Part shown: positions 16,713-33,707 of the stretch, piece by piece
Layout: each line of letters starts with the position of its first letter
Numbering within the stretch: the stretch's first letter is position 1
Source: Streptomyces sp. NRRL S-350
Lineage (GTDB): Bacteria; Actinomycetota; Actinomycetes; Streptomycetales; Streptomycetaceae
Assembly: GCF_000719705.1 (NCBI RefSeq)
Contig: NZ_JOHO01000060.1
Span: 1-42,649, forward strand
Reading direction: 5' to 3'
DNA: 42,649 nt
Translations under genes and position numbers: made by a program
Notes under the pieces: generated by a model
What the model saw: the letters and a program-made list of their open reading frames with translations, nothing else
Told to the model about the DNA's origin: nothing
Database searches by the model: none

Positions 16713-16985
16713 TCAGACCGCGCTCTTCTTGAGCCGACGGCGCTCGCGCTCGGAGAGGCCGCCCCAGATGCCGAAACGCTCGTCATTGGCGAGGGCGTAC
16801 TCCAGGCACTCCGAACGGACCTCGCAGGCGAGGCAGACCTTCTTGGCCTCGCGAGTCGAGCCGCCCTTCTCGGGGAAGAAGGACTCGGGGTCGGTCTGGG
16901 CGCACAACGCGCGCTCCTGCCAACCGAGTTCCTCCTCGTCCTCCGCGATGCCGTCCCCGATCAACAGCTCAAAGAGCTCGCTCAT
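16713..16985 (-). CDS. whiB: Sporulation regulator WhiB (WhiB2-type iron-sulfur protein)
   Basis: A 90-residue Wbl protein. Four cysteines (Cys28, Cys51, Cys54, Cys60 in ALCAQ and KKVCLACEVRSEC) bind the [4Fe-4S] cluster; GIWGG (72-76) is the conserved turn and SERERRRLKKSAV is the basic DNA-contact tail. The segment from WQERALCAQTDPESFFPEKGG onward is almost identical to Streptomyces WhiB and mycobacterial WhiB2. WhiB acts with WhiA and the principal sigma factor to stop aerial growth and start sporulation septation. GAGGAGGC precedes the ATG. A promoter at 17061-17090 and a terminator at 16625-16652 define a monocistronic unit. Upstream palindromes may be regulator sites. Confidence 0.95.
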   Translation of the reverse strand: MSELFELLIGDGIAEDEEELGWQERALCAQTDPESFFPEKGGSTREAKKVCLACEVRSECLEYALANDERFGIWGGLSERERRRLKKSAV

Positions 16986-17060
16986 GTGGCGCGCCTCCTC
17001 TGCCCCTACTTGGCGTCCCCGTGGTTGCCGTTGCCTCGTGCGGCCGACGACACGAGTGAA

Positions 17061-17090
17061 ATTACAGTTGCGTCACTCTGGCCCCGTCAA
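17061..17090 (-). promoter_or_regulatory. whiB promoter (TTGACG-18-TGTAAT)
   Basis: On the minus strand TTGACG (17090-17085), an 18-base spacer and TGTAAT (17066-17061) form a near-consensus vegetative promoter. The predicted start lies near 17054, about 70 bases before the whiB ATG. Confidence 0.6.
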
Positions 17091-17224
17091 GCCGAGCTCT
17101 GGTATTGGGGCCAGGATTCACTCCCCGGCACCAAGCCGTTACGAATAGTGTGCATATCCGGACACATCGGACCATTCGCCTCAAGGCCCTGAACCGTGCC
17201 CAACCATCCGCAACCAATCGCCGC

Positions 17225-17310
17225 GTGACGCGCGGTCACCGGAACAGGCCGGTCATCGGGCTCCCTTCCCGGCGATCTTCCCATCGAAACGTAGAGAGTG
17301 ATGAATCACC
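17225..17310. promoter_or_regulatory. Two palindromes between whiB and the cysteine leader (BldD-like candidates)
   Basis: GTGACGCGCGGTCAC at 17225-17239 has perfect 5-base arms. By eye it agrees with the TnACnC(A/T)GnGTnA consensus reported for BldD except in the central two positions. AGTGATGAATCACC at 17297-17310 matches the older AGTGA...TCACC description. BldD is reported to control whiB in Streptomyces. Palindromes are seen in the sequence; assignment to BldD is inference. Confidence 0.35.
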
Positions 17311-17361
17311 CCATCCGGGAAAGATCCGGCTCCAACCCACTCGAATGCCGCATCCTCCGGT

Positions 17362-17391
17362 TTGACACCGGCCCTGCGGATGCGGTGTCCT
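17362..17391 (+). promoter_or_regulatory. Promoter for the cysteine leader / cysteine dioxygenase unit
   Basis: TTGACA (17362-17367) is a perfect -35, followed by 18 bases and TGTCCT (17386-17391), a weak -10. A start about 7 bases later falls on or next to the leader ATG at 17399, which would make the leader ORF leaderless, in line with the missing Shine-Dalgarno sequence. Confidence 0.55.
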
Positions 17392-17398
17392 TTTCCCT

Positions 17399-17485
17399 AT
17401 GTCAGAGTTCGCCAGCCCCCGGAGCGGTTCCACGTTCCGCCGTGCCGTGAACTTCTGTTGTCGCCTCTGTTCCTGCTGTATCTAG
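17399..17485 (+). CDS. Polycysteine leader peptide upstream of cysteine dioxygenase
   Basis: A 28-codon ORF, ATG to TAG, too short for usual gene calling. The peptide ends VNFCCRLCSCCI: five Cys within eight residues (Cys20, 21, 24, 26, 27) just before the stop. There is no ribosome binding site, and the promoter places the transcription start at the ATG. Cysteine-rich, often leaderless, short ORFs are known as cysteine-responsive attenuators in mycobacteria and as leader peptides before sulfur genes in Streptomyces. Here the downstream gene, 121 bases away, degrades cysteine. The assignment as a regulatory ORF is inference from composition, position and the partner gene. Confidence 0.75.
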   Translation: MSEFASPRSGSTFRRAVNFCCRLCSCCI

Positions 17486-17606
17486 GCGCCCGCGTCCCAC
17501 CGCGCGCCGCCCCAGGAAGCACAGAGGCCGCCCGCGAGTCCCGTCCCAGGACATCCCGGATCCGGCTGATCCCACGAACCGGCCGACTCATCCGAGGACG
17601 ACTCCC

Positions 17607-18284
17607 GTGCGCATGATCCGCATCCGCAAGCGGAACCGCGACCGCAACAAGCTCACCCGCCGCGGCCTCGCCACCGCCGCCCACCCCGTGGGCGCCCGCA
17701 CCACCGCCGGGGCCGCCCGCTGGGCCGACGGCCTCAGCGACGTCTCCATCGCCGGCGACCCGCTCGCCTTCCCGCACCTGGCCCGCACCGACCTGCCGCG
17801 CCACCCCGCCACCGTCGCCGAGTACGCCCGGCTGGTCCGCGAGATCGCCGCCGACCGCGCGCGCTGGGAGCCGCTGGTCCGCTACGACGCGCTGACCCGC
17901 TGGTACGCCCGGCTGGAGACCGGCCCCGGCTACGAGGTCTGGCTGCTCAGCTGGCTGCCCGGCCAGAGCAGCGGCTTCCACGACCACGGCGGGTCCTCCG
18001 GCGTGATGACCGTCGTCAAGGGCGAGCTCGTCGAGCGCTCCCTCACGCGCGCGGGCGAGGGTGCCCGGGCCCTGAAGCCCGGCGGGCAGCGCGTGTTCTC
18101 GTCCGGCTACCTGCACGAGGTGGTCAACGGCGCGCTCGAACCCGCCGTGTCCATCCACCTCTACACCCCCGGCCTCACCGAGATGAACCAGTACGGTGCG
18201 AGCGCCGTCCCCAGGCAGCACCCGGAACCGCACGCGGAGCAGCACCAGGGGCGGCACCGGCACGCGCAGGCCGAGACGCACTGA
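17607..18284 (+). CDS. Cysteine dioxygenase family protein (cupin)
   Basis: A 225-residue cupin related to cysteine dioxygenase, which uses iron and O2 to oxidise cysteine to cysteine sulfinate. The first cupin motif is GFHDHGGSSGVMTVVKGELVE (His125, His127) and the second gives His170 in SGYLHEVVNG, the expected three-His iron site; YEVWLLSWLPGQ precedes it. The N-terminal 27 residues are strongly basic (RIRKRNRDRNK) and the C-terminus is His-rich (seven His among the last 23 residues or so), both outside the fold. GTG at 17607 with GAGGA eight bases upstream is chosen; an in-frame ATG at 17613 is possible. It follows a polycysteine leader ORF, and fbiA follows 61 bases later. A 3-mercaptopropionate dioxygenase activity is an alternative. 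Confidence 0.88.
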   Translation: MRMIRIRKRNRDRNKLTRRGLATAAHPVGARTTAGAARWADGLSDVSIAGDPLAFPHLARTDLPRHPATVAEYARLVREIAADRARWEPLVRYDALTRWYARLETGPGYEVWLLSWLPGQSSGFHDHGGSSGVMTVVKGELVERSLTRAGEGARALKPGGQRVFSSGYLHEVVNGALEPAVSIHLYTPGLTEMNQYGASAVPRQHPEPHAEQHQGRHRHAQAETH

Positions 18285-18345
18285 GCCGGGCCCGGCCCGG
18301 CCGGACCGCGCTGACGGGCAGTCGGGCCGTGGCAGGATGAACCCC

Positions 18346-19356
18346 ATGCGCATCGTGGCACTGGCAGGCGGAATCGGCGGAGCGCGCTTCCTGCGCGGAC
18401 TCCGCGCGGCGGTCGGCCCGCAGGACGAGATCACCGTCATCGGCAACACCGGCGACGACATCCACCTGTACGGCCTCAAGGTCTGTCCCGACCTCGACAC
18501 CGTGATGTACACCCTCGGCGGCGGCATCCACGAGGAGCAGGGCTGGGGCCGGGCCGACGAGACCTGGTCGATCAAGGCCGAGATGAAGGAGTACGGCGTC
18601 GGCCCCGAGTGGTTCGGCCTCGGCGACCGCGACTTCGCCACCCACCTCGTCCGCAGCCAGATGCTCACCGCCGGGTACAGCCTCAGCCAGGTGACGGAAG
18701 CGCTGTGCGTGCGCTGGCAGCCCGGCGTGCGGCTGCTGCCGATGAGCGACGACCGGGTCGAGACGCACGTGCGGATCACCGACGAGCAGGGCACCCGGGC
18801 GGTGCACTTCCAGGAGTACTGGGTCAGGCTGCACGCCGCCGTGGACGCCGAGGCGGTCATCCCGGTCGGCGCGGACACCGCGAAGCCCGCACCCGGGGTG
18901 CTGGAAGCGATCGCCGAGGCCGACGTCATCCTCTTCCCGCCGTCCAACCCGGTCGTCTCGATCGGCACCATCCTCGCCGTCCCCGGCATCCGGGAGGCCG
19001 TCGCCGCCGCCCCGGCGCCGGTCGTCGGGCTCTCGCCGATCATCGGCGGGGCGCCGGTGCGCGGCATGGCCGACAAGGTGCTCGCCGCCGTCGGCGTCGA
19101 GGCGACGGCCGAGGCGGTGGCGCTGGACTACGGCGGCCGGGCCGCGCTGCGGAGCGGCTCGGACGAGGGCGACGCCGGGCGGCGAGCGGGCCTGCTCGAC
19201 GGGTGGCTGGTCGACACCGCCGACGAGGCCTCGGTGGCCGCGGTCGAGGCCGGCGGGATCGCCTGCCGGGCCGTCCCGCTGCTGATGACCGACGTCGAGG
19301 CCACCGCCGCGATGGCCCGGGCGGCACTGGACCTGGCGGAACAGGTCCGCAGGTGA
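18346..19356 (+). CDS. fbiA: 2-phospho-L-lactate transferase / PEP-type FbiA (CofD) for F420
   Basis: A 336-residue enzyme of the CofD/FbiA family. It transfers the phosphoenolpyruvyl (or phospholactyl) group from the guanosine diphosphate intermediate to the flavin Fo, giving dehydro-F420-0 in actinobacteria. The N-terminus [19 protein letters not shown] is the family glycine-rich loop; [29 protein letters not shown] is the Fo/metal site region with the Asp-Asp pair; [14 protein letters not shown] and [15 protein letters not shown] are further signatures. Start ATG 18346 is preferred over the ATG at 18337 because AGGA sits eight bases upstream and alignment begins at MRI. Its stop overlaps the fbiB start (GTGA), so the two are translationally coupled. 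Confidence 0.95.
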
Positions 19357-33449: not shown

Positions 33450-33530
33450 TCAGCCGCGACAGAGCGAACAGGCCACACCGCTGCGCAGGTCGACGTGCCG
33501 CCGACGCGTGAGTGCCCGACTCCGGTCCAT
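33450..33530 (-). CDS. Cysteine-type leader peptide upstream of FMN reductase
   Basis: A 26-codon ORF, ATG to TGA. The peptide reads MDRSRALTRRRHVDLRSGVA then CSLCRG. The RRHVDLR block followed by a C-terminal Cys pair is the signature of the short leader peptides annotated before sulfur assimilation and sulfonate genes throughout Streptomyces. The reductase start lies 121 bases downstream on the same strand. On the minus strand TTGACC (33568-33563) is followed after 18 bases by TTGCAT (33544-33539), a possible promoter that would place the transcription start within a few bases of the ATG. Regulation by cysteine is inferred. Confidence 0.8.
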   Translation of the reverse strand: MDRSRALTRRRHVDLRSGVACSLCRG

Positions 33531-33707
33531 GCCCGGAATGCAAACACGCTGTGTTCGAGCCGGTCAAGAAACGTTTCGGCAGCCGGAACGCGGAGTGTCG
33601 GGACGTTACGGCGGAACGATCCGGTGCGTGCATCAAAACGGCTACAAGAGGCCTGGTGGGGCCCCCGGGGGGAGTCAGCACGACCGGGGTCGGGCATCCT
33701 CGACGGC

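Follow-up and report, generated by a model that had tools for sequence, protein, structure and literature searches.

A conserved cysteine-codon leader upstream of cysteine dioxygenase in Streptomycetaceae, a candidate cysteine-responsive attenuator

The window, which is the whole 42,649-nucleotide stretch of DNA that was analysed (contig 60 of the 8.8 Mb genome of Streptomyces sp. NRRL S-350), carries in order a whiB gene on the minus strand, a short leader open reading frame (ORF), a cysteine dioxygenase (CDO) gene, fbiA, and fbiB. The leader ORF (MSEFASPRSGSTFRRAVNFCCRLCSCCI; 17399–17485, plus strand), read directly from the sequence, comprises 28 codons and ends with a TAG stop. Its Cys codon tract, likewise read directly, is UGU UGU CGC CUC UGU UCC UGC UGU (17456–17479, plus strand), in which codons 20, 21, 24, 26, and 27 encode Cys, and is followed by one Ile codon and the stop. 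No Shine-Dalgarno sequence was found before the leader ATG at 17399, where the sequence is CCTTTTCCCT. An earlier note on this DNA had described a 28-codon ORF with five Cys in eight residues before its stop and without a ribosome binding site, and both descriptions hold.

The CDO gene (17607–18284, plus strand; 225 aa, GTG start) begins 121 nt after the leader stop. Its product matches PF05995 (E = 1.2e-18), and its best-matching solved structures are cysteine dioxygenases, in agreement with the earlier claim that a cysteine-degrading gene lies 121 bases downstream of the leader. The Shine-Dalgarno sequence of the gene, GAGGA (17594–17598, plus strand), was read directly. In 112 of 160 relatives, a Shine-Dalgarno-like motif is located no more than 14 nt from the CDO start that was chosen, and in the remaining relatives shown, GAGGAA lies slightly farther from the start, as judged partly by eye. 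The ATG of fbiA (PF01933) is at 18346, 61 nt past the CDO stop at 18284 as had been noted before, and fbiB follows. Because 24 of the 38 closest named relatives of the window CDO (L004–L041) are Kitasatospora, the window locus is called Kitasatospora-type here, within the family Streptomycetaceae. The source genome also contains a third, weaker CDO-family match (29.7 bits, contig 38; L003, L249), near which a scan of both strands found no Cys leader.

Upstream of the leader, a -35 box, TTGACA (17362–17367, plus strand), was read directly, with 37 nt from its first T to the leader ATG, and conservation marks a putative -10 element, TGTCCT (17386–17391, plus strand; T[CG]T[CG]CT), whose spacing fits a start at the ATG. 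In group K (71 loci), positions -13, -11, -9, and -8 are T, T, C, and T in 100% of the loci; the same four positions are at least 90% conserved in group S (48 loci), and are weaker in groups A and P. Although conserved, the -10 region has no A at position 2. An invariant -10 element without this A is odd for a housekeeping promoter. The earlier claim of a TTGACA promoter at the leader is thus borne out for the box and for the leaderless-type spacing, but not by the -10 region lacking the A, nor by a simple scan, which gave 0 matches to a sigma-70-type promoter at the leader. Judging from the sequence, transcription probably starts at the leader ATG, which would make the leader leaderless. An inverted repeat, GACACC..GGTGTC, seen by eye between the -35 and -10 regions of some loci, was dropped.

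For the analysis of conservation, 210 loci were gathered, namely 80 named relatives, 29 loci, 100 stretches from family genomes, and the window; the 200 family genomes surveyed, from 17 genera, all contained a CDO match. Three loci with too little upstream sequence (L040, L054, and L147) and 44 with duplicate upstream sequence were left out, and 163 remained. A leader ORF of this kind was present in 160 of the 163 loci (159 with ATG and one with GTG), at least three Cys were encoded in the last 12 codons in 159 of the 163, with two in L043, and a box with at most one mismatch to TTGACA was located 35–37 nt before the start of all 160 leaders. In ten further genomes, mostly from weaker-matching genera, the leader was found in all ten. 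Combined, the leader precedes CDO in 170 of 173 distinct loci, among which all 17 genera are represented, and conservation of the terminal Cys codons across Streptomycetaceae, which the earlier note had proposed as a check, is therefore observed. The three loci without a leader are L077, L080, and L083, the last of which is a partial CDO match. L077 (Streptomyces sp. 7-21, at about 2966) keeps the TTGACA box, has lost the leader ORF, and is thus a natural leader-free variant; there, an ATG in frame with CDO is located no more than about 70 nt from the box.

Chance occurrence was assessed in 1.09 Mb of sequence (both strands counted) from the window and the loci longer than 5 kb, with the leader itself excluded. 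This control contained four ATG ORFs of 15–50 codons with a TTGACA-like box 35–38 nt upstream, and none of the boxed ORFs in the 1.09 strand-Mb had at least three Cys in the last 12 codons. These results indicate that the leader before CDO is real, conserved, and beyond chance.

The conserved Cys-rich C terminus and the conserved TTGACA box would also suit a functional Cys-rich small protein, involved in metal or redox binding, that is not a regulator. However, the peptides range from 26 to 51 aa, differ in the number and spacing of Cys, with tails as various as CCRLCSCCI, CRCRCRCC, and CCCPSC, and are otherwise poorly conserved (mean column identity 32% in the 36 rows of alignment A3). A protein-level function would, moreover, leave the codon skew described below unexplained, and we regard this alternative as very improbable.

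Outside the family, CDO matches were obtained in 58 genomes, of which the best 17 loci were taken; L277 had too little upstream sequence, and 16 were scored. Two of them (L266 and L268) have an NF042934-like leader with one Cys (MHLEPLHWSNLPVDLRRQASALCTAFAPA type) and TTGACT 36 nt before it. A convincing leader was not found in the other 14 of the 16 scored loci from these best 17 of 58 genomes; among the 14, L276 has an ORF ending in RCCC with no -35 box, and L278 has a VDV-motif ORF with one Cys and no box.

The Cys codons of the CDO leaders are predominantly UGU (588 of 763). Among the 155 distinct ORFs, UGU accounts for 557 of the 698 Cys codons in the last ten positions, compared to 12 of 43 at earlier positions, and in the CDO, FbiA, FbiB, and WhiB genes of the same loci for 135 of 1258. 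The other leader codons that can end in U or C end in U in 440 of 2830 cases. UGU is not the sole U-rich choice in the leaders, since most of their glycine codons likewise end in U (64 of 113). The Fisher p value calculated for these counts takes no account of the shared descent of the leaders and is not to be relied on as it stands. Seven other Cys-type leaders of the source genome provide some independent support: all 11 of their tail Cys codons are UGU and all four inner Cys codons UGC, in a division of tail from inner that was drawn after the codons had been seen. The UGU skew suggests that decoding, or else RNA pairing, has been under selection at the sensing positions, and provides a testable rule for finding further cysteine leaders.

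The base next to the tRNA-Cys anticodon carries a sulfur-dependent modification, ms2i6A37. A more specific reading of the skew is that the sulfur regulon of the family is read through UGU in particular, and that CDO is switched on together with the biosynthetic genes as a step that supplies sulfite or copes with oxidants rather than in ordinary catabolism. The leaders of CDO, sulfite reductase, rhodanese, cysKM, FMN reductase, and probably metNIQ would then place UGU, not UGC, at the sensing positions, where wobble decoding would be sensitive to both Cys-tRNA charging and ms2i6A37. We consider this specific form quite unlikely.

Between the Cys codons and the CDO start, four RNA segments, all on the plus strand, were delineated. 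Segment 1 (GCCUCUGUUCCUG; 17463–17475) overlaps the Cys codons and is complementary to segment 2 (CAGGAAGCACAGAGGCCG; 17513–17530), in which GGCCG at 17526–17530 complements segment 3 (CGGAUCCGGCUG; 17557–17568). Segment 3 complements both segment 2 and segment 4 (CGGCCG..UCCG; 17580–17594), and the CDO Shine-Dalgarno sequence begins with the last G of segment 4. A sub-threshold Rfam match to mir-24 (17464–17529, minus strand; 26.3 bits, gathering cut-off 50) covers the 1:2 inverted repeat and was rejected as a chance family name. A second sub-threshold match, to SAM-IV inside the CDO gene (20.5 bits, gathering cut-off 38), was also rejected.

In the 62 Kitasatospora-type sequences (alignment A2), the 1:2, 2:3, and 3:4 complementarities are kept, are mostly invariant, and show little covariation. 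For the 1:2 helix (GCCUCUG:CAGAGGC), 88.2% of the cells are paired and 0 pairs are changed on both sides. For the 2:3 helix (GGCCG:CGGCU), 99.0% are paired, and this near invariance leaves the helix without covariation. For the 3:4 helix (CGGCUG:CAGCCG), 94.5% are paired, and one pair is changed on both sides in four of the 62 sequences. Over the whole alignment, 92.0% of the cells are paired, compared to at most 54.9% when it is slid; one pair has double changes, and the five measures used are reached by 2, 436, 40, 433, and 29 of 500 shuffles, respectively.

Partition-function folding of the 62 sequences with segment 1 blocked, compared with the 1:2 helix enforced, gave a mean P(2:3) of 0.10 versus 0.00 and a mean P(3:4) of 0.69 versus 0.81. 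In only 11 of the 62 sequences did P(2:3) increase by over 0.1, and blocking of segment 1 made the Shine-Dalgarno sequence more accessible by over 0.1 in 13 of them and less accessible in three. With the block extending up to the first Cys codon, the opening energy of the Shine-Dalgarno sequence changed by a mean of -0.38 kcal/mol in group K (71 sequences, of which 20 became easier and 14 harder to open by more than 0.5) and of -0.47 kcal/mol in group S (40 sequences); with the block extending up to the last Cys codon, it was slightly harder to open in group K (+0.16). Larger effects were obtained in group A (mean -1.71, 22 sequences) and group P (-2.87, 10 sequences). Sequestration of the Shine-Dalgarno sequence by equilibrium folding was therefore set aside as an explanation for groups K and S, where it is small. 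The order 1:2, 2:3, 3:4 is that of a trp-type switch, a model that would predict expression when a ribosome stalls on segment 1, and the partition-function folding bears this out in direction alone. Since the folding effects are small and the covariation is weak, the sign of the attenuator is one that we infer.

Expression data from S. coelicolor bear on this sign. From its gene order next to whiB, SCO3035 is presumably the counterpart of the window CDO in that species. In a study of wild-type S. coelicolor treated with H2O2 (PMC4991794), SCO3035, there called hypothetical, was up-regulated 6.54-fold and SCO5772 8.00-fold at the RNA level; SCO3034 is given as whiB in PMC4255298, and SCO5772 as a putative CDO in PMC3087709. 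Also induced by H2O2 in the same data were cysNDCHI, ssuABC, cysM, SCO4164, SCO2910-2912, and metNIQ, with metQ below the cut-off of the paper (PMC4991794), and several of these operons are counterparts of Cys-leader operons in the source genome. Since SCO3035 is induced together with the cysteine-synthesis genes, this partial record indicates that CDO follows cysteine synthesis in its expression. The H2O2-induced list as available contains neither SCO3036 nor SCO3037 (PMC4991794), which disfavours a strong carry-over to the downstream fbiAB, and the earlier suggestion that control would extend to fbiA and fbiB is accordingly not supported. In the mutant without HbpS-SenS-SenR, no gene was up-regulated according to the same excerpted source (PMC4991794). 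As far as that source goes, this result is no specific sign of cysteine sensing, and the induction of SCO3035 by H2O2 could reflect promoter control.

The sequence-based evidence makes regulation of CDO by the cysteine supply likely. We consider it probable, with considerable room for doubt, that the leader encodes the cysteine-sensing peptide of a ribosome-dependent attenuator with the sign of a biosynthetic leader. Conservation, codon choice, genomic context, the complementary segments, and, from the S. coelicolor study, the co-induction of SCO3035 with the cys genes argue for this reading, which supposes a leaderless start, stalling, the switch itself, its sign at this locus, and the identity of SCO3035 with this gene. 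Transcription would start at the leader ATG, and the ribosome would therefore begin on the first codon. When Cys-tRNA is scarce, the ribosome would halt in the UGU-rich tract and cover segment 1, segment 2 would pair with segment 3, segment 4 and the adjoining Shine-Dalgarno sequence would be free, and CDO would be made. When Cys-tRNA is plentiful, the ribosome would finish and leave, 1:2 and 3:4 would pair, and CDO would stay low. The sign would then be that of the leaders of biosynthesis genes, and CDO would belong to a sulfur regulon responding to cysteine limitation and also induced by oxidants. That CDO would be made while cysteine is scarce is metabolically odd, and counts against this explanation.

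If the attenuator reading holds, a cysteine-degrading enzyme has been placed under a cysteine-codon leader throughout Streptomycetaceae, apparently with the sign of biosynthesis genes. Such an arrangement would be at odds with a simple picture in which bacterial CDO serves to dispose of surplus cysteine, and would suggest that the enzyme has a part to play under sulfur limitation or oxidative stress.

In Streptomyces proper, a hairpin was seen by eye at the stop codon and another that does not adjoin the Shine-Dalgarno sequence. Since this layout differs, the same signal may there operate through termination of transcription, and the C-rich stretch after the stop could serve as a Rho site. The main helix of the stop-codon hairpin of the Streptomyces-type leaders is paired in 83.8% of the cells. 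For the ORF and stop hairpins together (alignment A1, 48 Streptomyces-type rows), 86.2% of the cells are paired, compared to at most 49.5% when the alignment is slid; 0 of 500 shuffles reach the observed pairing or the covariation score, four reach the number of doubly changed pairs, and 303 reach the count of further pair types. Within the ORF of the window, a possible hairpin, HP1 (CGGAGC..GUUCCG; 17420–17439, plus strand), was noticed by eye 16 nt before the first Cys codon, and its counterpart in A1 is paired in 92.9% of the cells, with three of six pairs changed on both sides. Compared with synonymous recoding, the mean z of HP1 was -0.9 in group K, +0.18 in group S, -0.76 in group A, and -1.27 in group P. 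As this signal is weak, and absent in group S, HP1 was not retained as a constraint beyond the protein.

A scan of 16900–18500 found 0 sites resembling an intrinsic terminator (a GC hairpin with a U-tract), and the post-stop hairpins of the Streptomyces-type leaders, which by eye had no convincing U-tract, were rejected as terminators. The region from the leader stop to the Shine-Dalgarno sequence (17486–17593, plus strand) is C-rich and G-poor in base composition. C exceeds G by more than 0.1 after the stop in all 155 leaders scored of the 160, versus 0 of 159 control regions, each consisting of the 120 nt that precede whiB at these loci. A similar skew follows four of the five other leaders examined, those of sulfite reductase, cysKM, the second CDO, and FMN reductase; that after the fifth, the rhodanese leader, is less pronounced (C 0.42, G 0.33). 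The C-rich stretch fits a Rho site, or may only keep the RNA open.

These observations could reflect Rho-dependent attenuation with the same biosynthetic sign, in which the speed of leader translation would decide whether the C-rich stretch is presented to Rho and the RNA segments would only hide or show it. Such a mechanism overlaps the preferred one and differs in its output step. The consistent skew, its recurrence after the other leaders, the lack of an intrinsic terminator in the scan, and the change of SCO3035 at the RNA level in the available data (PMC4991794) are in its favour, but the C-richness may merely keep the RNA unfolded, the skew after the rhodanese leader is smaller, and the distal stretch would lie beyond what a ribosome halted at the Cys codons covers. 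We hold it to be possible, though not probable.

The opposite sign was also considered. In a tnaC-like scheme, high cysteine would cause arrest at or near the stop, or the stop hairpin would be opened, and CDO would be raised. A catabolic target, a Cys tract directly before the stop, the stop hairpin of the Streptomyces-type leaders, and the C-rich stretch as a possible Rho site would all suit such a scheme. Arrest peptides have fixed residues; in the CDO leaders, by contrast, the number and position of Cys vary and the peptide sequence is not fixed. Furthermore, UGU codons are likewise found in the leaders of biosynthetic genes of the source genome, and a C-rich stretch follows four of the five leaders examined. 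A tna-like Rho mechanism has been proposed for mycobacterial cys leaders by Seliverstov 2005 (PMC1262725), but SCO3035 rises with, and not against, the cysteine-synthesis genes in the partial data cited above, in which free cysteine was not varied (PMC4991794). This co-induction lowered the reversed sign from a main reading to an alternative, which we now think rather unlikely. The earlier note had offered two signs, and manufacture of the enzyme under cysteine or sulfur limitation is the better supported one, by the co-induction as far as it is documented and by the segment order. A switch that is on when cysteine is scarce is thus more likely than the reverse.

The source genome has other leaders of this general kind. 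NF042934 scores above its cut-off of 27 bits at five places, the fifth on contig 70. One such leader lies before a sulfite/nitrite-reductase-family gene followed by PAPS-reductase-family genes, and others precede a rhodanese gene, a cysKM-family gene (with a small gene between), and the second CDO gene. The second CDO leader (MESGATLVCRLHVDLRRQASSICAC; contig 6 (L001), 902–979) is of the NF042934 type and has TTGACT 37 nt before its ATG. A leader before an FMN-reductase gene (PF03358; MDRSRALTRRRHVDLRSGVACSLCRG; window 33451–33531, minus strand) has TTGACC 37 nt before its ATG and scores 17.1 bits, below the cut-off, and a further sub-cut-off leader was seen by eye before an oxygenase-like gene on contig 36. 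The -35 boxes of the second CDO and FMN-reductase leaders are thus TTGAC at 37 nt; those of the sulfite-reductase and rhodanese leaders are weaker, and none was found for the cysKM and oxygenase leaders. The earlier analogy to actinobacterial sulfur leaders is consistent with these NF042934 leaders before sulfur genes and the second CDO of the same genome.

The window leader itself did not match any Rfam or NCBIfam family, and in particular neither NF042934 nor NF042936 (Ms4527A) up to E 10. Alignment A3 comprises 33 first-CDO leaders, from 149 distinct peptides, and three NF042934-type leaders; NF042934 matched four of its 36 rows, namely the three added rows and L043, which at 14.5 bits, versus the cut-off of 27, was the best of the 33 first-CDO leaders scanned. 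Because worn versions of the NF042934 motif occur in CDO leaders (LHVELRRAASALC in L043 and RPVDVRRVFSALC in L287), the comparison suggests that CDO and NF042934 leaders are of common descent and that extra Cys codons were gained. The two types share sulfur targets, including CDO, and UGU at the tail Cys codons, whereas most CDO leaders carry three to six Cys within their last 12 codons and the window leader is unmatched by the model.

Among known systems, short leaderless Cys-codon ORFs control the downstream gene by cysteine availability in mycobacteria, according to PMC9031893. These polycysteine attenuators (Canestrari et al. 2020; NF042936) are, as described there, the same short leaderless-type Cys ORF (PMC9031893), and by sequence 159 of the 163 loci have this layout, with a Cys run near the stop and leaderless-type spacing. 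In contrast, the window target is a cysteine-degrading enzyme, the taxon is another, and there is no match to NF042936. The cysteine leaders of the Mycobacterium and P. acnes cys operons and of B. longum cbs, as far as that account is available (Seliverstov 2005, PMC1262725), have the same Cys runs near the stop and no conserved terminator hairpin; the portion consulted gives no Streptomyces cysteine leader and no CDO target (PMC1262725). Classical trp and ilv attenuators, described in S. lividans (PMC8079986), have the same placement of control codons before the stop, and the Kitasatospora-type leaders carry complementary segments in the corresponding order 1:2, 2:3, 3:4. Unlike them, the window leader has no U-tract terminator by the scan, and its segment 4 abuts the Shine-Dalgarno sequence, which makes a translational output more likely in the Kitasatospora-type leaders.

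No report of a leader before CDO was found in the openly licensed papers searched, and none of the eight leader peptides in the available part of the S. lividans reannotation precedes CDO (PMC8079986). The novelty of the leader is its target, CDO, and its UGU-rich tract, for which it counts as a new variation on the known cysteine leaders, and no searched family model matches it. The S. lividans metL peptide contains CMCRRMC and was read by the authors as methionine-dependent (PMC8079986). An ORF on contig 54 of the source genome (L247; 1072–1225), which ends in MCRRMCHR and has UGU as its tail Cys codons, resembles this peptide as given there (PMC8079986). A MetQ-type gene follows about 2.2 kb downstream of the ORF, and metNI presumably occupies the space between them.
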